Notes under the pieces: generated by a model
What the model was told of the DNA's origin: nothing
Databases searched by the model: none
What the model saw: only the letters and a program-made list of their open reading frames with translations
Program-made: the position numbers and the translations under genes
Assembly (NCBI RefSeq): GCF_031082295.1
Contig: NZ_JAVHLD010000007.1
Span: forward strand, 1 to 64,000
DNA: 64,000 nt
DNA from: Humidesulfovibrio sp.
GTDB taxonomy: Bacteria > Desulfobacterota > Desulfovibrionia > Desulfovibrionales > Desulfovibrionaceae
Reading direction: 5' to 3'
Part shown: positions 9,772-20,258 of the stretch, piece after piece
Position numbering within the stretch: position 1 is the first letter of the stretch
Layout: each line of letters opens with the position of its first letter

Positions 9772-11940
9772 ATGGTTACGGTGAAGGATATCGAGAAGCT
9801 GCGGGCGATGAGCGTTGAAATCGACGTGCTCTACGGCAACGGCGAAGACCAGCAGGGCCAGCATCGACTGGATGAGGCCTTGAAGCTGGCGGAAGGGCTG
9901 GATCCTGCCTACGCCAATTTCTTCCAGGGGGAGGTGGCGGACTATGTCAAGAACGACAACAAGCGCCAGGAGGCCCTTTTCCGCAAAGCGCTGGCCCTGA
10001 GGCCGGAAGACCATTTCCTCCTGCGGGGGCTTGGTGTCAGCCTGTCCAAGCAGGGCAAGCTGGCGGAGGCCCTGCAATTATATGACAAGGCCCTCTTGCT
10101 GGGTCCGAAGGACGGGCGCGCCTGGTGCAGCAAGGGGGTTGTCCTCTCCGAGATGGACAGGGAGGACGACGCCATCGCCTGCTACGATCAGGCCCTGGCG
10201 CTGAACCCAAAAGACTTCAACGCGTTGCGAAACAAGGGCATCGCTCTGTATAAGCTGGGCAAGGAGCCCGAAGCGCTCGCATACTATGACCAGGCCCTGG
10301 CGCTCAACCCCAAGGACTACAACTCCTGGCGCGTCAAAGGCGTTTCCCTGGGCCAGCAGGGCAACCATCGCAAGGCTCTTGAATGCACCGAAACAGCCCT
10401 GAAGCTCAAACCGAACGATGTCCAGGCCCAGGCGAACAAGGCCTTGCAGTTGCACCAGCTGGGCAACGTCGATGAGGCGATGCGGCTCATTCGGAAGGTT
10501 GCAAAGGAGAACCCTGGCGATGGGTATGTGCAGCGTTTCAGCCGGTATTTGAACGTTCTGCAAGGCAAGAAGCAAATAACGGCAGCTGCCACGGGCAGCC
10601 AGAAACAGCAGTTGGATGACCTGATGGCTGTTGTGGAGAGGGTGCGCAGCGAGTTCAACGAGTCCATCAATGAGATCTGCAAGAAGATGGAGGAGAGCAC
10701 TCGCCACATCAACGACTTTCTGGAGCCGGAGTCGTTGCTCCGAGACGACCAGGCGCTGTTCTTCATCCTGCGCAAGTGGAATTCTTATACCCCCTGCATA
10801 CCGCGTGAGGATGGTGAGCGGAGCATCGGCGGCGGCTACTTCTTCCTTGTGAACGGGATCGGCACTGTGGTTGATCCAGGCTACAACTTCCTTGAAAATT
10901 TCAACCGCATCGGCGGGCGCATCACCGATATCCACAACATCGTCATCACCCACGCTCACAACGACCACACGGCGGACCTGGAATCAATCCTCTCACTCGT
11001 GTACAAGTACAATGATGACAAGGAATTGAGGGAGCCGACGGACGAAGGCTTCAAGTCCGTCAAGCTGTTCCTCAACGCCGGGTGCCAGATGAAGTTCTCC
11101 GGCCTCATCGATCTGCGCGGCGCTCACCATCTCGAAGATGTGCAGACCCTCATGCCCGGCCACCGCTATGACCTTGGCGAGGGGCTGGTCCTGCGGGTAT
11201 TGCCTGCCTACCACGACGAGGTGGTGGCAAAGAAGTATGCCGTGGGTTTGGAGTTTACCTTGGGTGCCCAGGACGACAGCGCTACACGCGTGGTCATCAC
11301 CGCTGATACGGGGCTGTTTCCGCAGACCAAGGACCGAAAAGCCGACATCGAGGGTGAGGAGATCTGGAAGCGTTACGGCCTGGAGCCCGGCGGCACGCAT
11401 CTTCTCGTTCCGCACCTTGGCTCTGTTAAGGAAAAAGAGTTCACCGCAACGCTGCCCACGGACACGCAAGGCGTCTTCTACCCCAACCACCTGGGGCTCA
11501 TGGGTACGGTGCGAGTCATATCCTCTCTGCGTCCGGAACTGGCCATGGTGTCGGAGTTCGGCGAGGAACTGAAGGAATTTCAGCAGAAGCTGGTGGAGAT
11601 GATCGCGGAGTGCGTGCAAAGCTTCCAAACGACTGAAGCCACCCGGACGTTGGTGCTGCCCGGCGACCTGACCTTCATCTATGAATTGCGGGAGCGCAAG
11701 GTGTACTGCATCAAGAGCAAAGGCCCCGTTCGACCCTCCGCCGCGCTCGAGGCCGAGCTCTGCAAGGAGGAACGGCTGGCCCTGTTCTATTATCACAGCA
11801 CGGAGACGAGGGGGCTGCGGAACTTCAACGAACTGGTCAAGGACTTTGAGAAAGCCTTGAGAGAGCGTTGCCTGACCTTCATCCACAAACAGGCCGCAGG
11901 GGAGAAACCGCCCAAGCCTTCCTCCCGAAAGCGCGGATAG
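9772..11940 (+). CDS. TPR repeats fused to metallo-beta-lactamase-fold hydrolase
   Basis: A 722-residue cytoplasmic protein. Residues about 45-260 hold about five to six TPR units (for example DDAIACYDQALALNPKDFNA). A charged helix (about 280-320) links them to a metallo-beta-lactamase fold at about 350-655. Metal ligands are visible: H394-A-H396-N-D398-H399 (THAHNDH), a likely bridging D512 (ITADTG), and further histidines H548 (PHLG) and H573 (PNHLG). The end is Lys/Pro rich and probably disordered. The family acts on phosphoesters, nucleic acids or thioesters; the substrate here is unknown. GGAGG precedes the ATG. It stands alone between two matching terminators, and codon use seems less GC-extreme than in its neighbours, suggesting possible transfer. 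Confidence 0.82.
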   Translation: MVTVKDIEKLRAMSVEIDVLYGNGEDQQGQHRLDEALKLAEGLDPAYANFFQGEVADYVKNDNKRQEALFRKALALRPEDHFLLRGLGVSLSKQGKLAEALQLYDKALLLGPKDGRAWCSKGVVLSEMDREDDAIACYDQALALNPKDFNALRNKGIALYKLGKEPEALAYYDQALALNPKDYNSWRVKGVSLGQQGNHRKALECTETALKLKPNDVQAQANKALQLHQLGNVDEAMRLIRKVAKENPGDGYVQRFSRYLNVLQGKKQITAAATGSQKQQLDDLMAVVERVRSEFNESINEICKKMEESTRHINDFLEPESLLRDDQALFFILRKWNSYTPCIPREDGERSIGGGYFFLVNGIGTVVDPGYNFLENFNRIGGRITDIHNIVITHAHNDHTADLESILSLVYKYNDDKELREPTDEGFKSVKLFLNAGCQMKFSGLIDLRGAHHLEDVQTLMPGHRYDLGEGLVLRVLPAYHDEVVAKKYAVGLEFTLGAQDDSATRVVITADTGLFPQTKDRKADIEGEEIWKRYGLEPGGTHLLVPHLGSVKEKEFTATLPTDTQGVFYPNHLGLMGTVRVISSLRPELAMVSEFGEELKEFQQKLVEMIAECVQSFQTTEATRTLVLPGDLTFIYELRERKVYCIKSKGPVRPSAALEAELCKEERLALFYYHSTETRGLRNFNELVKDFEKALRERCLTFIHKQAAGEKPPKPSSRKRG

Positions 11941-13491: not shown

Positions 13492-15234
13492 ATGCGCCCA
13501 CGCCAATCCGTCTGGACCCTGCGCGCGGTCCTTGCCCTGGCCGCGCTGCTGACCCTGGCCCTGCTGGCGCCCACCGCCTGGGCCGAGACCCCGCAGCACC
13601 GCCTGGCCCTGGTCATCGGCAACTCGAACTACGAGACCTCGCCCTTGAAGAATCCCGTCAACGACGCCACGGACATGGGCAACATGCTGAAAAGCATGGG
13701 TTTTGAGGTCATCCGAGAGCTGAACGCCAACCAGAAGCAGATGGAGAACGCCATCCGCACCTTCCAGGGCAAGCTCGGCAAGGACTCCGTGGGCCTGTTC
13801 TTTTACGCGGGCCACGGCATGCAGGTCTCCGGCACCAACTACCTGGTGCCCGTGGGCGCGAAGATCAACCAGGAGTCCGACGTCAAGTACGAGTGCGTGG
13901 ACGCGGGCCGGGTGCTCGACGCCATGCACACCGCCGGCAACCCGCTGAACATAGTCATCCTGGACGCCTGCCGCGACAACCCCTTCGCCCGCAGCTACCG
14001 CTCCAGCACCAAGGGCCTGGCGCGCATGGACGCGCCCACCGGCACGTTCATCGCCTACGCCACGGCCCCCGGAGACACCGCCGCCGACGGCACCGGCAAG
14101 AACGGCGTGTTCACCAAGTACATGCTCGAGTACATGCCCACCCCGAACCTGGAGGTGGACAAGGTGCTCAAGAAGGTCCGCGTGTCCGTCATGCGCGAGA
14201 CGGGAAAGAAGCAGGTGCCCTGGCAGGCGTCCTCGCTCACCGGCGACTTCTTCTTCAAGGGCGGCGGCGCGGCCGAGGGTCCGGCCGACAAGGCCGTGGC
14301 CGAGGAATGGGCGCGCATCGAGAAGGAGCGCCAGGAAATCAACGAGATGAAAAGCCAGCTGGAGCGCAGCAAGGCCGCCTCGGCCCAGGCGCCCCAGGCC
14401 GCACCCCAGGCTCCGGCGGGCAAGGCTGCCGTAGCGCCCCAGGCCGCGCCGGCGGCCCTGAAGCCCGTCGCCGCCAAGCCTCCCAAGCTCATGTTCCTGC
14501 TGCAGGAGGACTGCGTGAACTGCCCGGTGAAGGGCATGAACATGGCCGAGAACGAGCTCATCGCCAAGCTCAGCCAAAAGGGCTACCCGCTCATCGACAA
14601 GAGCCAGCTTGAGGCCGCCAACCAGATGGGCCAGGCCCGGCTGGCGCTCTCGGGCAACGTGGACGCGGCCAAGCAACTGGGCGCCATGTTCGGCGCCAAG
14701 TACGTGCTGGTGGGCAAGGCCGTCATCCAGGACGGCGGCGAGATCATGCCCGGCACGGGACTCAAGTCCATCCAGACCAACATCCAGCTCAAGATCATCA
14801 GCTCCCAGACCGGGCAGATCGTCGGGGCCACGGTGAAGACCGCCAGCGCCGCCCACATCAGCGCGCTCAACGGCGCGCAGAAGGCCCTGGCCCAGGCCGC
14901 GCAGGAAACCGTGGACGGCTTCGTGGCGCCCACCCTGGCGGAGGCCGCGGCCAAGGCCGGGGCGGAGGGCGGGGCGGTGCGCGTGTTCGCCACCGGGGTC
15001 AAGGACATGGCCGTGTACGGCGCGCTCATCGCGGCCCTGGAAAAGACCCCCCGGGTGACCCAGGTCAACACCGACCGCTTCAACAAGCAGAGCGGCCTGC
15101 TGGTGCTCGACCTGCTCTTCGGCGGCAGCGGCGAAGACCTGGCCGTGGCCGTGGACAACCAGTCCCTGGGCGGCAAGCGCAAGATCTTCGTGCAGGACTT
15201 CGGCGCCGAGCAGGTGGATATCCGCGTCAAGTAG
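13492..15234 (+). CDS. Exported caspase-like (peptidase C14) protein with C-terminal CsgG/LpoB-like domain
   Basis: A 580-residue exported protein with a cleavable signal peptide (cleavage probably after PTAWA, residue 31). Residues about 35-255 form a caspase/metacaspase p20-like domain: RLALVIGNSNY, the His loop YAGHG (H108) and the Cys loop LDACRDNPF (C160), so the catalytic dyad looks intact. A charged helix (285-310) and an Ala/Pro-rich linker (310-345) follow. Residues about 347-580 resemble the alpha/beta fold of CsgG, LpoB and FlgT (AENELIAKLSQKGYPLIDKS, then AKYVLVGKAV). RBS AAGGAGG precedes the ATG. The role is unknown; periplasmic processing of the neighbouring exported proteins is one possibility. 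Confidence 0.82.
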   Translation: MRPRQSVWTLRAVLALAALLTLALLAPTAWAETPQHRLALVIGNSNYETSPLKNPVNDATDMGNMLKSMGFEVIRELNANQKQMENAIRTFQGKLGKDSVGLFFYAGHGMQVSGTNYLVPVGAKINQESDVKYECVDAGRVLDAMHTAGNPLNIVILDACRDNPFARSYRSSTKGLARMDAPTGTFIAYATAPGDTAADGTGKNGVFTKYMLEYMPTPNLEVDKVLKKVRVSVMRETGKKQVPWQASSLTGDFFFKGGGAAEGPADKAVAEEWARIEKERQEINEMKSQLERSKAASAQAPQAAPQAPAGKAAVAPQAAPAALKPVAAKPPKLMFLLQEDCVNCPVKGMNMAENELIAKLSQKGYPLIDKSQLEAANQMGQARLALSGNVDAAKQLGAMFGAKYVLVGKAVIQDGGEIMPGTGLKSIQTNIQLKIISSQTGQIVGATVKTASAAHISALNGAQKALAQAAQETVDGFVAPTLAEAAAKAGAEGGAVRVFATGVKDMAVYGALIAALEKTPRVTQVNTDRFNKQSGLLVLDLLFGGSGEDLAVAVDNQSLGGKRKIFVQDFGAEQVDIRVK

Positions 15235-15256
15235 CCGCACAGCGCCGCCGACAACA

Positions 15257-15291
15257 AAAGGCCCTGCCGGAGCGCATCCGACAGGGCCTTT
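15257..15291. terminator. Bidirectional terminator between convergent genes
   Basis: AAAGGCCCTG and CAGGGCCTTT form a 10-bp stem, extended by an inner CCGG/TCCG segment. A-rich and T-rich flanks let it work on both strands, ending the caspase gene (+) and the CsgG-like gene (-). Confidence 0.85.
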
Positions 15292-15311
15292 CCCATTGTG
15301 GTGACGGGAGG

Positions 15312-16022
15312 TTACTTCAGCGCGCCGAGCACGCCGTCCACCTGGCGCTTGTAGGCCGGGTCGGCGGCCACGGTCTCGGCGAAGAGCTTCTCGGCCCCGG
15401 CCTTGTCGCCCTTGTCCAGCGCCTCCAGCGCCCGGGAGTAGAGCATGGCCGCGTCCATGCCGCCGCGCGCGGCGGGCGCCTCGGCAAGGCTGACCTTGAG
15501 GGCCGCGGCGATCTTCTCGGCCAGTTGGCGCTCAAGCTTCATGAAGTCGTCCTTGTGGCCCATGATGGACGAGGCCAGGATGCACTCGCTGGTCTCCACC
15601 TTGATGATGCGGGCGTCCATGCGCACGTCCTTGCCGAGCACCATGAAGGAGCCGAAGGCGATGGCCTGCGCGCCCAGCAACCGCCCCGCCTGCACCGCCG
15701 TGCCGGAGTCGATCATGCCGGTCTGCCCCATGGCGATTTCCTTGAGCAGGGCGGCGATCTGGGCGCGCTCGATGACCTTGAGGCTCGTCCCGGCCAGCTT
15801 GAGGTCAGTGATGAGCATGGCCGCGAGGCCCTGGGCCAGCGGGCCGTACGACGCATGGTCGGTGACGGCGTTGTTCTCGAAGGGCAGCACGGCCAGGGTG
15901 GTGGGCGCGGCGTCCTGGGCCTGGGCGCGAACGGGCGCGAGGCAGACCAGGGCGGCCAGCAGGGCGAAAGCGGCCAGGGCGGCCAGGGGCCGGGCCGTCA
16001 GCGTATGGGAAAGGGTGCGCAT
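15312..16022 (-). CDS. Exported CsgG-like protein with C-terminal TPR-like segment
   Basis: A 236-residue exported protein with a long signal peptide (to about residue 36, ARAQAQ). Residues 40-170 match the CsgG/curli-assembly family core: TLAVLPFENNA, LAQGLAAMLITDLKLAG, KVIERAQIAALLKEI and GAQAIAFGSFMVLGKDVRMDARIIKVET. CsgG proteins form the outer-membrane pore for curli subunits, but there is no lipobox Cys here, so this may be a periplasmic relative instead. Residues about 185-230 look like one TPR hairpin. GAGGAGGA precedes the ATG. It is transcribed after the gene at 16059-16553. Confidence 0.78.
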   Translation of the reverse strand: MRTLSHTLTARPLAALAAFALLAALVCLAPVRAQAQDAAPTTLAVLPFENNAVTDHASYGPLAQGLAAMLITDLKLAGTSLKVIERAQIAALLKEIAMGQTGMIDSGTAVQAGRLLGAQAIAFGSFMVLGKDVRMDARIIKVETSECILASSIMGHKDDFMKLERQLAEKIAAALKVSLAEAPAARGGMDAAMLYSRALEALDKGDKAGAEKLFAETVAADPAYKRQVDGVLGALK

Positions 16023-16058
16023 CGCGGATCCTCCTCGGGGATGGGCATGTGTCGCGGG

Positions 16059-16553
16059 TTATTGCTTCTTGCGGGACGAGCGCCGCCTGCCGGAGTCGTA
16101 GCCGGGCTCCGTCCGATACGAGGCGAAGTCGATGCTGAAGCTCTCTCCGTCGCCGTAGTCCTTCTGGCAGTAGCCGGTGTTGTATTCGTCGATGTAGGCG
16201 GTCAGGGGCTGGTTGCCCACCTTCACGGCGTAGCCGTAGATCTGGCCGCTCGGCAGGATATACAGGCCCAGGGTTTCCTGGCCTTTCTTGAAGACGCGGA
16301 TGTTGGTCTCGTCGCCGGGAATCTCCGGGAACTTGTCCTCGAACTTCTCTCCGGCGAAGCGGTAGCCCGCGCGGATGAGCTGATCCTCGGAGGGTTTCGG
16401 GTTGTAGGCCTTGTCCGCCGCCATTGCCATTGGCGGAAGCAGGGCGCCGAGAGCGACGCCGAGAGCGACGACGATGGCGGCGCCGAGGGCGAGCGCCTGC
16501 CAGCGCGCATGCGGGAAAGTTCGGTGGGTGCTGCGGTCATCCGGTGCGGACAT
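16059..16553 (-). CDS. Uncharacterised exported protein
   Basis: A 164-residue protein with an N-terminal membrane signal (hydrophobic residues about 19-40, likely cleaved after PPMAMA at about 45). The mature part has the strands RAGYRFAGEKFEDKFPEIPG, LGLYILPSGQIYGYAVKVG and TAYIDEYNTGYC, and ends in a strongly basic tail (SGRRRSSRKKQ). I do not recognise the family. GGAGG lies before ATG 16553. It precedes the CsgG-like gene by 36 bases on the same strand, so they are probably one operon and the product probably acts in the periplasm with it. Confidence 0.68.
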   Translation of the reverse strand: MSAPDDRSTHRTFPHARWQALALGAAIVVALGVALGALLPPMAMAADKAYNPKPSEDQLIRAGYRFAGEKFEDKFPEIPGDETNIRVFKKGQETLGLYILPSGQIYGYAVKVGNQPLTAYIDEYNTGYCQKDYGDGESFSIDFASYRTEPGYDSGRRRSSRKKQ

Positions 16554-16608
16554 CTCGTTCCTCCCAGGCCCGGAGAAGGGGGGATGCGGGCGCCAATTGG
16601 TCATATTG

Positions 16609-16632
16609 TGCCAGAAGTGGGGCTTTCTGGCA
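16609..16632. repeat. Perfect inverted repeat in divergent promoter region
   Basis: TGCCAGAA and TTCTGGCA, 8 bp each with an eight-base spacer, lie 56 bases upstream of the minus-strand exported-protein gene and 162 bases upstream of the plus-strand one. It could be an operator for the divergent pair or an early transcript hairpin. No T-run follows. Confidence 0.45.
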
Positions 16633-16793
16633 ACCTCCGGGCCGGTTGCGCCGCATGGTTGCCGCGCCGTCTTGAGGCATGGGCGCGCACCTTGCGCGCG
16701 GGCGAAATCTTTGGCAAGAATGGACCAGGACCAGAAGCATCTCAGGCATGAACGCGCCAGGCTCCCCGCCTGCGCCACAACCCTGGAGGTCGC

Positions 16794-17123
16794 ATGAACG
16801 CAGGCCCCCGTTTTCCCCGCTGTCTGTCTTTCGGGCTGGCTTTCGCCGGCGCCGCCCTGGCCCTCTCCGTGGCCTTGACCAGCCCGGCCCTGGCCGAGGA
16901 GGTCAGGCGCTACAAGCCCGTGGTGGTGCAGGGCGGCGACAACAACCTCTATCCGCCCAAGGTGCTCATCGTGGATACCCGTGACGGCCACCTCTGGCTC
17001 TGGCAGGAGCGCGGCAAGAAGGACTCCCAGGACGGCCTGGCCGACACGCAGCTCATTTACCAGGGCAAGGTGGCCCCCGGCCGCGCCGCCGGGGACGTGA
17101 TCTCCACCATCAAGCGCAAGTAG
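16794..17123 (+). CDS. Small exported protein, unknown function
   Basis: A 109-residue protein with a signal peptide (cleavage probably after SPALA, residue 34). The mature 75 residues contain GDNNLYPPKVLIVDTRDGHL followed by WLWQERG, a beta-rich pattern, then a hydrophilic end. I do not recognise a family. GGAGG precedes the ATG. It is convergent with the repeat-protein gene at 17135-17527, only 11 bases away, and divergent from the minus-strand pair, so it belongs to the same exported-protein neighbourhood. Confidence 0.68.
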   Translation: MNAGPRFPRCLSFGLAFAGAALALSVALTSPALAEEVRRYKPVVVQGGDNNLYPPKVLIVDTRDGHLWLWQERGKKDSQDGLADTQLIYQGKVAPGRAAGDVISTIKRK

Positions 17124-17134
17124 GCCGGGCCGAA

Positions 17135-17527
17135 CTACTTGTTGCCGCCCACGGTGACGCCGCCGATGGCGCTGTCGGCGCTGGTGTTCTGGCCTCCGGC
17201 CTGGGTGGTCACGCGGTCGGCCTTGCCGCTGACGTTGACATCGCCGGTGTGGCTGCCGCGCCGGATGTCAATGGTGTGGACGCTGGTCCGGGCCTCGGTC
17301 TTGTCGCCCGTGGCGCTGGTGGAGACCTTGCCCACCTTGCTCGACACCATCAGGTCCGTCTCGCGGATCTGCCCGGCCTGGGCCGCGCCCGTGGGCAGTG
17401 CCGTCGCCAGGAGCGCCAGGAGCGTGAGGCTGGCCAGGGCGGTCAGCGGCTTCGGAGCCCGACGAGGGAGGGGACCCGTCAGCGGCGTCTCATGGGGGAG
17501 TGTTGTAACGAGGTCGCGGCGGAGCAT
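17135..17527 (-). CDS. Exported two-repeat protein (possible fibre/amyloid-type subunit)
   Basis: A 130-residue protein with an extended signal region (cleavage near residue 50, AAQA). The mature part is two imperfect repeats of about 37 residues; the second (residues about 92-129) reads HTGDVNVSGKADRVTTQ then AGGQNTSADSAIGGVTVGG. The same pattern, TGDI.V.GKA..VT....GQ, occurs in the product at 19965-20258. It is rich in G, T, S, N, Q and V with alternating polar and aliphatic residues, as in beta-solenoid or amyloid-type subunits. AGGAGGTG sits before ATG 17527; a longer frame starting at 17644 is rejected. The fibre role is inference. Confidence 0.7.
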   Translation of the reverse strand: MLRRDLVTTLPHETPLTGPLPRRAPKPLTALASLTLLALLATALPTGAAQAGQIRETDLMVSSKVGKVSTSATGDKTEARTSVHTIDIRRGSHTGDVNVSGKADRVTTQAGGQNTSADSAIGGVTVGGNK

Positions 17528-17828
17528 GCGGCACCTCCTGGCCTGTTGTCGGCCCTCTGGAGTCGGATCGGACTGTTGCGGGCGCGGTTTCGCTGCGCCT
17601 CCCGCAAGAAATGGTGATGCCATGTGTATGGAATTAAATAGCACAAGGCCGTGAAGAGAGCAACGCCTTGGCCTTCTGCTGAGTTGTGGCAGAGGGTGCG
17701 CGCCTTGACAGGGCTATGGGCTTCGGAGTAATTTCAATGCATCCTGTGGGACCTCTCCCCAGCGGTCCTTGCCTGGGCATGGTGCCCAGGGACGACGGCT
17801 GGCAGGGTCTGGCCCGCAAGGGGGACAC

Positions 17829-18143
17829 ATGAAACGCGCCTCGCTCATCCCGTTCATTCTGGCCCTGACCCTGGTATTCTGCGGGTCGGCCCTGGCCAAG
17901 GACATGGACGACAAGATCGGCAACGATGACGGGTTCGAGTTCGACAACGACCTGAAGAGAAGCACCAACGTCAAGTACACGAAGGTCAAGGCCAAGAGCG
18001 ACGCCAAGCGCGACAAGGGCGGCTCCATCGAGGCCGGCGACGGCGACACCAACATCAACAGTGTCGTGGCCGGGGGCAACATCTACGGCGATATCGTGAT
18101 CATTGACGAAGGCAAGGGCAACAAGAACATCATCAAGAAGTAG
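17829..18143 (+). CDS. Small exported acidic/basic repeat-like protein
   Basis: A 104-residue protein with a clear signal peptide (cleavage after GSALA, residue 23). The mature part is highly charged: an acidic start (KDMDDKIGNDDGFEFDNDL), a Lys-rich middle, then GGSIEAGDGDTNINSVVAGG and NIYGDIVIIDEGKGNKN. The alternating Gly, Asn, Asp and Val of the last 45 residues recall the two repeat proteins nearby but are not clearly the same repeat. AAGGGGG precedes the ATG. It sits 58 bases before the CsgG/DUF4384 lipoprotein gene on the same strand and could be a cargo or accessory of it. Confidence 0.7.
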   Translation: MKRASLIPFILALTLVFCGSALAKDMDDKIGNDDGFEFDNDLKRSTNVKYTKVKAKSDAKRDKGGSIEAGDGDTNINSVVAGGNIYGDIVIIDEGKGNKNIIKK

Positions 18144-18201
18144 ACGCCCGCGGCAGGCGCCGCGCGGCTCGCAAGCCGCCACACGGCAAGGAGTTGGCAC
18201 C

Positions 18202-19860
18202 ATGAAAAAACGCCTGATGCTTGTTACCCTGCTCGCCTTGAGCCTGCTTTTGTCCTCGTGCAAGCAGCCCACGGACGTGACCCTGCCCGTGGAGGCGCCC
18301 AAGGCCACCGAAACATCCTATTCACAGGCCCTGAAGAAGTTCGGGCGCCTGACGCGCGAATTCCGGGTGAGCACCCTGCGCGTGCAGACCACCCAGGTGC
18401 AGGACGACACGGGTTCCTCCGCAGCCACGGGCGCGGAGATCCCGTTTGACATCACCAAGATGATCATGAGCGCCATCAACGGCATCGGCGGCAGCATCCA
18501 GTTCATCCCCTACGACCCCATCTACATCAAGAACCAGGCCGCCCTGAACATGACCACGCTGGAAGGCAAGATGAAGCCGGAAATCGTGCTGAACGGCGGC
18601 ATCACCGAGTTCGACCGGTCCATCGAGTCCGGCAGCTCCGGGTTCGACTTCGGCGGCAGCTTCGGCGCGGGCAAGAACTCCCCCAGCCTTGACGCGGGCA
18701 AGCAGGACCGCGATTCCGTGTCGAGCATCACCATCGACCTGAACATCACCGACGTGGAGACCATGGCCATGGTGCCGCGCGTGCAGGCCGTGAACACCAT
18801 GAAGGTCTTCAAGGCCGCCAGCGACCTCGACCTCGGCTTCTCCATCTTCGGCGCAAGCTTCGGCTACAAGAGCAGCATCAAGAAGATCCAGGGCCGCCAC
18901 GCCGCAGTGCGCGTGCTGGTGGACCTCTCTGTGCTGGAGACCCTCGGCAAGTACCTGAACCTGCCCTACTGGAAGTGCGTGGACCAGGGCGCCAAGCCCG
19001 ATCCCGTGGTCATCGAGAACATCCGCGACCAGTACCTCGAGGCCAACCAGCAGGGCCGTGTGCGCATGATCCAGAACCTGCTCTACGTCTACGGCTTCCG
19101 GGGCCTGCGCGCCACCGGCAACCTCGACGGCGACACCGTGGCGGCCATCAAGGCCGTGAGCGCGGCGTACGGCTTCCAGGCCCAGACGCTGGACGAGAAC
19201 TTCTACGAGCAGCTCTTCCTGAACGCCCCTGTGCTGGGCGAAAAGAGCAAGGTCCAGGGCAGCGCCGGCGCAGCCGCGCAGAACATGACCATCGACGGCT
19301 CCGTGGTGGGCCGCGCGGCCAGCCAGAGCGCCCAGCCCGGCGTGCCCTTGAGCGTGGACATCAAGACCGACAAGGCCGTGTACAAGCAGGGCGAGAAGAT
19401 CCGCATCACCCTCCAGGGCAACAAGGACTTCTACGGCAAGATCGTGTACCTCACCGCCGACGGCCAGACCGTGCAGCTGCTGCCAAACGGCATGCGCAGC
19501 CTGGACTTCTTCAAGGGCGGCCGCACCTACAATGTGCCCGAGGACTCCGACGGCTTCAGCCTCGACGTGGCTCCGCCCTACGGCGCGGAGCGCATCATGC
19601 TCTACGCCAGCGAGTCCCCGCTGCCACCGGTCAAGACCCGCTCGCTGGGCGAGGGCACGGGCGGCATGCTGAGTCTTGAGGGCGGAAAGCAGGCCCTGAC
19701 CAACCTCTCGCGCGGCATCAAGATTTCCCAGGCCGCGCCTGCAAAACCCGTGGCGACCGAGGCCCGCGAGGCGGCACCCCCCATGAAGCCGCAGCCGGTC
19801 CAGGGCGCCAGCACCAGCGTGGTGGAGCGCGCCGTCGCCATCACCACCAAGGCCAAGTAG
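18202..19860 (+). CDS. Outer-membrane lipoprotein: CsgG-like, peptidoglycan-binding-like and DUF4384 domains
   Basis: A 552-residue lipoprotein (signal MKKRLMLVTL, lipobox LSSC with C20). Residues about 40-260 resemble the CsgG curli-secretion family (ALNMTTLEGKMKPEIVLNGG and the ITIDLNITDVETMAMVP strand). Residues about 287-330 resemble a PG_binding_1 fold (RMIQNLLYVYGF, then GDTVAAIKAVSAAYGF). Residues about 380-475 match DUF4384 (YKQGEKIRITLQGNKDFYGK, then LLPNG). AAGGAG precedes the ATG. The combination suggests an export or assembly factor held at the outer membrane and cell wall. It lies between two genes for small exported proteins. Confidence 0.78.
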   Translation: MKKRLMLVTLLALSLLLSSCKQPTDVTLPVEAPKATETSYSQALKKFGRLTREFRVSTLRVQTTQVQDDTGSSAATGAEIPFDITKMIMSAINGIGGSIQFIPYDPIYIKNQAALNMTTLEGKMKPEIVLNGGITEFDRSIESGSSGFDFGGSFGAGKNSPSLDAGKQDRDSVSSITIDLNITDVETMAMVPRVQAVNTMKVFKAASDLDLGFSIFGASFGYKSSIKKIQGRHAAVRVLVDLSVLETLGKYLNLPYWKCVDQGAKPDPVVIENIRDQYLEANQQGRVRMIQNLLYVYGFRGLRATGNLDGDTVAAIKAVSAAYGFQAQTLDENFYEQLFLNAPVLGEKSKVQGSAGAAAQNMTIDGSVVGRAASQSAQPGVPLSVDIKTDKAVYKQGEKIRITLQGNKDFYGKIVYLTADGQTVQLLPNGMRSLDFFKGGRTYNVPEDSDGFSLDVAPPYGAERIMLYASESPLPPVKTRSLGEGTGGMLSLEGGKQALTNLSRGIKISQAAPAKPVATEAREAAPPMKPQPVQGASTSVVERAVAITTKAK

Positions 19861-19868
19861 GGGCACCA

Positions 19869-19907
19869 TGCCGGGGCGTTTCGCCTCTCGAGGAGAAGGC
19901 CCCGGCA
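19869..19907 (+). repeat. Hairpin between lipoprotein and repeat-protein genes
   Basis: TGCCGGGGC (19869-19877) pairs perfectly with GCCCCGGCA (19899-19907), with partial pairing inside. No T-run follows. It probably uncouples expression of the small repeat protein from the lipoprotein or protects mRNA ends. An imperfect 16-bp palindrome follows at 19919-19934. Confidence 0.55.
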
Positions 19908-19964
19908 CAGACTGGAGAGTTGTACACGTGCAACGTAACCTGTAGCCTTTCAAGGGGGAGTCTC

Positions 19965-20258
19965 ATGAAAAAGCTCGTATTGTGCGCGTTCATCGTCCTG
20001 GCTAGCGCATCCCTGGCCCTGGCCGCCACCAAAACCGGCGACATCAGCGTGGACAGCAAGGCCGGCACCGTGACCAACGTGGGCATGGGGCAGAACGTGA
20101 AAGCCACCACCGACGTCCATTCCGTTGACGTGAAGGGCGGCTCCAAGACCGGCGACATCAAGGTCAAGGGCAAGGCCGGTCAGGTCACCAACGTGGGCAT
20201 GGGCCAGGGCGTGAAGGCCGAGACCAAGGTCGGCAGCGTGAAGGTCGGCGGACAGTAA
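19965..20258 (+). CDS. Exported two-repeat protein (possible fibre/amyloid-type subunit)
   Basis: A 97-residue protein with a signal peptide (cleavage after SLALA, residue 21). The mature part is two tandem 38-residue repeats, starting KTGDISVDSKAG at residue 23 and KTGDIKVKGKAG at residue 61; both contain TVTNVGMGQ or QVTNVGMGQ, and the second ends VGSVKVGG. This is the same pattern as the protein at 17135-17527. Such short exported proteins of regular beta repeats beside CsgG-like genes suggest a secreted polymer subunit, but nothing proves it. AAGGGGGAG precedes ATG 19965. A strong terminator follows. Confidence 0.75.
   Translation: MKKLVLCAFIVLASASLALAATKTGDISVDSKAGTVTNVGMGQNVKATTDVHSVDVKGGSKTGDIKVKGKAGQVTNVGMGQGVKAETKVGSVKVGGQ

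Follow-up and report, generated by a model that had tools for sequence, protein, structure and literature searches.

What does a compact block of eight genes for exported proteins do when it includes a candidate relative of the curli pore CsgG and none of the other curli components? The question is raised by positions 13492-20258 of a 64,000-nucleotide stretch of a Humidesulfovibrio sp. genome (assembly GCF_031082295.1, contig NZ_JAVHLD010000007.1), which as a whole is called the window below. The curli system, also known as type VIII secretion, consists of the channel CsgG together with CsgA, CsgB, CsgE and CsgF. We propose, with a probability of roughly 0.6, that these genes form a variable cassette encoding a CsgG-type, wall-tethered outer membrane system dedicated to export and anchoring, with its own solenoid cargo, running parallel to curli and to the HfaABD proteins of Caulobacter. 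The proposal centers on a lipoprotein of 552 amino acids (g7; 18202-19860, plus strand), a small exported protein of 104 amino acids encoded just upstream of it (g6; 17829-18143, plus strand), and two small exported proteins related to each other, the 97-amino-acid proposed cargo g8 (19965-20258, plus strand) and its 130-amino-acid paralogue g5 (17135-17527, minus strand).

The eight genes behave as one cassette

All eight open reading frames (ORFs) that a first-pass annotation of this DNA had described as adjacent genes for proteins with signal peptides were found in the interval, in the strand order + - - + - + + +. Each encodes an N-terminal hydrophobic stretch followed by an AXA-like site, as judged by a simple hydropathy rule and not by SignalP. 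Because both strands are used, a single operon is possible only for g6, g7 and g8, which are consecutive on a common strand. In the window, the block is flanked by a GAF gene on the left and a MacB-type operon on the right.

The annotation had linked the genes on the basis of position, export signals and shared features, and this linkage is borne out by their distribution in the genus, which we sampled with 15 genomes (8 have a completeness of 90% or more). Full-length g1, g2 and g7 have orthologues in an identical set of 4 of the 15 (the window's genome, G098, G110 and G247), at identities of 75-88%, 79-83% and 81-89%, respectively, and g3 is 79% identical in L020 and 62% identical in L021. 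The GAF gene is present in all 15 genomes. Its right side was examined in six of the eleven genomes that lack the block; one contig (L175) ends too early, and in all five informative cases the GAF gene and then the MacB-type operon lie on one stretch. The gap between them is 244-466 bp in four of these genomes and 1756 bp in one, as compared with 7046 bp in the window. G110 carries all eight genes with order and relative orientation as in the window, on a contig other than that of its GAF gene and at a different site; none of the window flanking genes tested was found at more than 40% identity in the 18-kb stretch around the block. The GAF gene of G098 adjoins the block on one side, and the other side lacks the MacB operon and continues with more distal right-hand genes of the window. 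G247 is consistent with a cassette, but there the genes are divided over two contigs. Given the five empty sites, the other site in G110 and the common distribution over 4 of 15 genomes, the eight genes have been gained, lost or moved jointly. The block is a real, well-delimited unit and a variable cassette in the genus.

A predicted CsgG-fold lipoprotein

Structure prediction identifies g7 as a CsgG-fold outer membrane lipoprotein with the core and long membrane hairpins of that fold, and as a member of the broad CsgG-pore superfamily; we regard this as a well-supported prediction. Its lipobox reads LSSC with the cysteine at position 20, and C20 is among the 90%-conserved positions of a 58-sequence alignment. 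An AlphaFold2 model made with 58 sequences (mean predicted local distance difference test score, pLDDT, 77.4; predicted template modeling score, pTM, 0.58) contains a CsgG-fold module at about residues 34-268 with four long strands between 128 and 229, a peptidoglycan (PG)-binding-like helical segment at about 270-340, and an immunoglobulin (Ig)-like DUF4384 domain that starts at about 380 and is completed by a C-terminal strand. When the model was compared with the PDB using Foldseek, the 25 best matches were all CsgG, with a best E-value of 8.1e-12, so that the doubt raised in the first-pass annotation, namely that the CsgG-like regions might not adopt the CsgG fold, is answered for the g7 model. 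A VIA structural alignment with CsgG gave a Z-score of 16.5 over 212 residues with a root-mean-square deviation (rmsd) of 5.5 for model residues 34-268, and CsgG chains as a group scored 14.5-16.5 over 175-215 residues. Support from sequence was modest, with profile comparison of g7 with Escherichia coli CsgG giving an E-value of 1.3e-5 at a probability of 80.6. Judging from the order and length of the strands in the monomer model, strands 128-229 probably correspond to the CsgG membrane hairpins.

Family models describe g7 less evenly. Pfam assigns DUF4384 at 4.2e-22, and CsgG (20.0 bits, cut-off 20.8) and PG_binding_1 (19.8 bits, cut-off 23) lie just below or below their cut-offs. Among the 58 g7 relatives, a PG-binding match is found in 16 and a DUF4384 match in 18. 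Searching the PDB with the g7 sequence gave no match, and searching it with the g7 profile gave PG-binding-type domains and one chance match, no more. The Ig-like domain reaches Z-scores of about 10 to domains of alpha2-macroglobulin, GbpA and RbmA, which possibly reflects a common fold and no more. The window's genome has another caspase locus (G000:C25:26140-27285; L002, L029), where a caspase domain is joined to DUF4384.

A conserved core beyond the genus

Sequence comparisons indicate that the conserved core of the system is g6, g7 and a repeat protein. A scan of genomes with the g7 profile returned 63 loci, whose taxa we take from record titles, mostly of metagenome-assembled genomes: Desulfovibrionaceae, Desulfobulbaceae and further Desulfobacterota-type groups, Methylococcales and other Gammaproteobacteria, and Nitrospirota-type groups, with single records labelled Elusimicrobia, Scalindua and Campylobacterales. 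ORFs were clustered over 67 loci (the window, three further genomes and the 63, once six duplicates had been removed). The g7 family was present at 66 of these, the g6 family at 54 and the repeat family at 60 at most, this last figure being an upper bound because the cluster is single-linkage and contains antisense and some spurious ORFs. A stricter profile test was applied to the 58 loci where 1.5 kb or more of sequence was available upstream of g7. It placed g6 directly upstream of g7, on the same strand and with a gap of at most 200 bp, at 48 loci, and a match to the repeat hidden Markov model (HMM) within 3 kb of g7 at 34; reversed-protein controls at the 58 loci gave 0 matches for g6 and 0 for the repeat HMM. 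A neighborhood conserved in related genomes, on which the first-pass proposal depended, therefore exists for the core, and the expected co-occurrence of the g7-type lipoprotein with repeat proteins extends across phyla.

In a survey at the level of the class, 19 of 297 genomes matched the g7 profile, in three of which the match was marginal and covered the PG-binding part only. A g6 match was found in 9 of 297, eight of which are among the 19 with g7 (the exception is G186). By clustering, the core is present in the cultured strains Methylotuvimicrobium buryatense 5G and Desulfobulbus elongatus DSM 2908. Profile comparison relates g6 to a family of small proteins in a diverged Desulfovibrionaceae group (L028, L088, L089, L092, L094 and L095; probability 95.8, E-value 8e-9). 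In one member of this group (L028:9399-16724), a g7 relative lacking a DUF4384 match is followed by a 726-amino-acid protein, an ABC transporter resembling MacB and an ORF that encodes an FGE-sulfatase domain, which together make up another accessory set.

Plasmids were scanned as well. Among the matches listed for g7, those in two Azospirillum records were of the full-length type, at 23-24% identity, and the remainder were DUF4384 alone; a search with a Desulfobulbus relative found none. On an Azospirillum lipoferum plasmid (L116:5909-6202), a 97-amino-acid protein with two repeats discernible by eye is encoded upstream of the g7 relative (23% identity), with OmpA downstream. This pair suggests that the pairing of g7 with a repeat protein reaches the Alphaproteobacteria.

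Other families recur next to g7. From a scan of one representative per cluster, neighbors of the DUF2807 (putative adhesin) type were assigned at 24 of the 67 loci, OmpA at 16, VWA at 13 and LPP20, below its cut-off, at 16. At one locus (L022:2302-5602; G020), a divergent gene beside g6 and g7 encodes another protein that has a DUF4384-like match.

Repeat proteins as candidate cargo

The g8 protein has two 37-38-residue repeats that are 70% identical at a lag of 38, a value reached by 0 of 5000 shuffles. Its relationship to g5 is apparent from 43.7% identity over 71 amino acids, and g5 has 26% internal identity at the same lag, which 54 of 5000 shuffles reached. The claim that two proteins of the block share one tandem repeat thus stands for their kinship and for g8, and is weak for the internal repeat of g5. 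In the family at large, the best self-match falls at a lag of 35-40 residues in 59 of the 64 members examined; self-identity in these is at least 0.5 in 22 and below 0.25 in 20, a low range that was shuffle-tested for g5 only. Members extend up to 972 amino acids with 25 HMM-detected units (L054). Some loci of Methylococcales and related Gammaproteobacteria (L038, L039, L043 and L044) carry two or three closely similar copies of the repeat gene in tandem, as if duplicated recently.

The model of a seven-repeat homologue of g8 (L046:1757-2572) is a confident one (mean pLDDT 93.9, pTM 0.88) and shows a regular beta-solenoid that repeats every 36 residues. Foldseek found no match to this model in the PDB below an E-value of 1e-3, and VIA, in which an absent structure excludes nothing, returned generic beta-helices with Z-scores of up to 15.8. 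A pentapeptide-repeat model, itself describing a solenoid, is matched by 8 of the 64 members (best 3.2e-8), in keeping with such a structure. Pfam matches over the repeat set are scattered, with Pentapeptide_4 in four members (best 1.8e-9), and the family as such is named by no library used.

Is this family curlin under another guise? The tests made say that it is not. No curlin match was seen among the 25 of 63 Pfam families listed for the repeat members, a result that leaves room for matches in distant members, and the repeat profile showed no similarity to CsgA. A link between the repeat unit and the curlin unit was also considered and dropped, the profile comparison giving a probability of 1.4 as compared with 0.6 for the reversed control. 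Curlin motifs are rare: QXGX2N occurs in 2 of the 64 proteins, X6QX10Q in 11 (at least twice in 2) and NX5QXG in 0, the last motif also being found 0 times in E. coli CsgA and 5 times in CsgB. A G-x-x-N-x-A element is present in 28 of the 64, and E. coli CsgA and CsgB contain five copies apiece; from the sequences we regard this likeness as convergence or a very remote link. In the whole of the window's genome, the curlin repeat (PF07012), CsgE and CsgF each gave 0 matches, with positive E. coli controls, in agreement with the first-pass statement that CsgA, CsgB, CsgE and CsgF are lacking.

The small partner g6

The position of g6 immediately upstream of the candidate pore gene makes it a likely partner of g7, and we suspect that it acts either as a periplasmic gatekeeper or chaperone or as a nucleating cap. 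Its profile has no similarity to CsgE or CsgF. One idea that we pursued is that its tail forms a single repeat-like rung. Profile comparison gave a weak signal (probability 35.8; for the unit profile, 6.3 as compared with 0.2 for the reversed control). In pairwise tests of tail against repeat, z exceeded 2 at 11 of 47 loci as compared with 2 of 47 for an N-terminal control, and was 0.6 for the pair in the window; the cargo of the same locus outscored the mean of the cargo from other loci in 28 of 47. These sequence comparisons hint that the g6 tail resembles a repeat rung in some lineages, not in the window's pair, and we treat this as a lead and not as a result.

Relationship to known systems

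Several features recall curli. The candidate pore g7 is a lipoprotein with the same predicted fold as CsgG, small exported repeat proteins are encoded beside it, one homologue of which is predicted to be a beta-solenoid, and the number of repeats varies in the family, as is described for CsgA (PMC3521004, PMC10192328). There are also differences. The curlin consensus, in which N and Q positions are fixed, is about 23 residues long (PMC10192328, PMC3521004), whereas the repeat lag here is 35-40 amino acids and curlin motifs are rare. Moreover, g7 adds PG-binding-like and Ig-like domains to the pore fold and has a partner of its own, g6, that is dissimilar to CsgE and CsgF. Considered as a curli system, the locus thus has the predicted CsgG-fold lipoprotein, and lacks curlin subunits, CsgE and CsgF.

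The Caulobacter proteins offer a second parallel. There, as in curli, a CsgG-type protein brings amyloid-like surface proteins to the outside: HfaA and HfaD require HfaB, a protein compared with CsgG, in order to arrive at the outer membrane (PMC6707917). The best NCBIfam match of g7 is HfaB (E-value 1.4e-6), which is also matched by 6 of the 58 relatives. Both systems have a CsgG-like protein, on which in Caulobacter the surface partners HfaA and HfaD depend (PMC6707917). However, g7 scores 27.8 bits against a cut-off of 300 for the HfaB equivalog model NF037935, and the eight genes include no holdfast genes. No match to HfaA or HfaD by name in NCBIfam was seen among 48 g6 and 64 repeat proteins at an E-value of 0.01, the existence of both models not having been checked; the comparison with HfaABD was by family models only, not by sequence. 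MafA of Neisseria is a proposed lipoprotein exporter dedicated to one neighboring protein, and its outer membrane oligomer is likened to CsgG by its authors (PMC7738311). It resembles g7, by description only, as an outer membrane lipoprotein encoded beside its cargo, and differs in that its cargo, as described there, is of another kind (PMC7738311). PelC and FlgT share a related alpha-beta core with g7, but at lower Z-scores (11.0 and 11.5) and over 118-139 residues as compared with 175-215 for CsgG.

By analogy, then, the system would work like curli and HfaABD while belonging to neither according to the tests made, which for HfaA and HfaD used family names only. Our search of the open-access literature, without preprints or most subscription papers, turned up no description of this gene set among the matches listed, and no paper in the open-access literature on CsgG together with DUF4384 or with Methylococcales.

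A model for export and its alternatives

How might the parts work together? As a lipoprotein, g7 would go to the outer membrane and probably form a ring like that of CsgG, in which the long beta-hairpins make the pore. The PG-binding-like segment would tie this pore to the wall, with the Ig-like DUF4384 domain probably facing the periplasm. The repeat proteins g8 and g5 would enter the periplasm via Sec, traverse the pore unfolded, and fold outside as beta-solenoids able to stack end-to-end into a fiber or coat. The small protein g6 would be the pore-adjacent partner, whether gatekeeper, chaperone or nucleating cap, and g1, g2, g3 and g4 would be more narrowly distributed accessories, possibly serving in quality control, with g1 maturing or degrading stalled cargo in the periplasm. 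We propose that g7 exports the repeat proteins and assembles them at the surface because a pore, a small partner, adjacent repetitive exported proteins and, at some loci, neighbors of the DUF2807, OmpA, VWA and (below its cut-off) LPP20 types fit the logic of curli and of the Caulobacter system. Export, fiber formation or polymerization, and the functions suggested for g6 and g1 are plausible.

A bolder version of this model, which we hold only tentatively, is that these loci represent a widespread form of CsgG-gated surface assembly, the third after curli and HfaABD. It would combine a wall-tethered pore with solenoid subunits built of 36-38-residue repeats, grown by gene expansion from 2 to about 25 units and nucleated or capped by g6 through a tail that may bear a rung. 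It would be spread over at least Desulfobacterota, Pseudomonadota and Nitrospirota, and within the genus gained, lost or moved as one cassette.

Several observations weigh against an export system of this kind. Export and fibers are predicted from genes and models, not directly observed, and the solenoid model is of the seven-repeat homologue at L046, whereas g8 itself has two repeats. The superpositions of g7 on CsgG are loose (rmsd 4.0-6.7 Å in VIA, 5-15 Å in Foldseek), the hairpin stretch 121-230 has block pLDDT values of 71-91, the Pfam CsgG model is matched at an E-value of 0.01 by just 5 of the 58 g7 relatives, and PG_binding_1 falls short of its cut-off in g7. The strict repeat HMM found no match at 24 of the 58 loci, and L022/L035 (G020) has g6 and g7 with no repeat gene found nearby. 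Furthermore, CsgG-related folds also serve polysaccharide export, as in PelC, and flagellar rings, as in FlgT.

In a rival reading, g7 would stabilize the envelope as a lipoprotein scaffold or periplasmic ring of the PelC, FlgT or TolB type, with the repeat proteins acting as periplasmic structural or stress proteins and nothing crossing the outer membrane. The related folds FlgT, PelC and LptE at Z-scores of 8.1-11.5, the PG-binding-like segment of g7, and the abundance of CsgG-family and caspase paralogues in the window's genome are in keeping with it. We nevertheless consider it improbable, since CsgG aligns better (14.5-16.5 over 175-215 residues as compared with 118-147 for FlgT/PelC-type chains) and a repeat family with members of up to 972 amino acids and 25 units (L054) is more suggestive of a surface filament than of a small periplasmic protein. 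An anchor of the holdfast type has somewhat better prospects, although it too seems unlikely to us: g7, g6 and the repeat proteins would attach a polysaccharide or capsule as HfaABD does, without a fiber. Such a role would suit both the rank of HfaB as the best NCBIfam match of g7 and the DUF2807- and OmpA-type neighbors at some loci, as well as the dependence of the externally located HfaA and HfaD on HfaB in Caulobacter (PMC6707917). It sits poorly with a score so far below the HfaB cut-off, with the 0 NCBIfam matches named HfaA or HfaD among the g6 and repeat proteins, and with the absence of polysaccharide genes from the eight. Finally, the variability of the cassette within the genus and the match of g1 to the PADLOC caspase model (5.7e-13, 46.9 bits) could point to a defense or toxin-type island with a caspase effector and neighboring sensors. 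We think this very improbable, because none of the seven remaining proteins matches a PADLOC model at an E-value of 0.01, the signal peptide of the caspase would direct it to the periplasm, and a clustered caspase occurs at just 12 of the 67 g7-family loci.

If the export model is correct, many sulfate-reducing, methane-oxidizing and Nitrospira-type bacteria possess an uncharacterized outer membrane fiber or coat system, one whose subunits are without curlin motifs and would therefore escape searches based on curlin. It would also offer, in solenoid subunits of naturally graded length and the pore dedicated to them, a means of studying how CsgG-type pores choose their cargo. The presence of the core in M. 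buryatense 5G and D. elongatus DSM 2908 makes the idea testable in cultured strains.

Accessory genes and surroundings

The remaining four genes appear to be peripheral to the core, and g1-g3 look genus-specific. The first, g1 (13492-15234, plus strand, 580 amino acids), encodes an exported caspase-like protein with a caspase domain at residues 37-254 (Pfam C14, 1.4e-41, 143.2 bits, cut-off 21.4) in which the His (YAGHG) and Cys (LDACRD) dyad is present, as read from an alignment with MALT1. Its C-terminal half is weakly LpoB/FlgO-like, with matches below curated cut-offs only, and profile comparison found no similarity of this half to CsgG or g7, in a weak test with 2 of 4 sequences effective. 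Ten matches to the caspase domain are found in the window's genome, and caspase-only paralogues are numerous in the genus. As the family is large and a clustered caspase was found at only 12 of 67 g7-family loci, including three that represent the cassette, the protease is at most an accessory.

The exported protein g2 (15312-16022, minus strand, 236 amino acids) matches the N-terminal half of the Pfam CsgG model (PF03783) at 5e-10, covering model positions 4-106 of 210. The PDB search with its sequence returned designed helical proteins only, with E-values above 0.007, and the CsgG family has 7 matches in the window's genome. The three CsgG-like export proteins that had been counted in the block are therefore reduced to one: g7 stands by its modeled fold, and g2, which covers half the model, and g1, whose C-terminal half showed no similarity to CsgG or g7 in the weak test above, had been over-read and offer no evidence of a pore. 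The domain reading as such was broadly right, with the caspase in g1 and DUF4384 in g7 confirmed, CsgG and PG-binding borderline in g7, and half of CsgG in g2.

The small exported protein g3 (16059-16553, minus strand, 164 amino acids) has no Pfam match and one chance-level NCBIfam match, and is met only inside the cassette. The family of g4 (16794-17123, plus strand, 109 amino acids), also small and exported, occurs upstream of g7 relatives in the diverged Desulfovibrionaceae group as well (alignment of 7). A possible homology of g4 with A7, a small family found at 28 loci, reached a probability of 46.7 and was set aside as suggestive only.

In G110, an extra 413-amino-acid TPR protein with a CsgG-family match is encoded next to g8 (L021:7087-8328), and several proteins like it, matching g2 and CsgG, are found in the window's genome. 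To the left of the block, the window encodes at 9772-11940 a 722-amino-acid protein that joins TPR repeats to a metallo-beta-lactamase-type domain.

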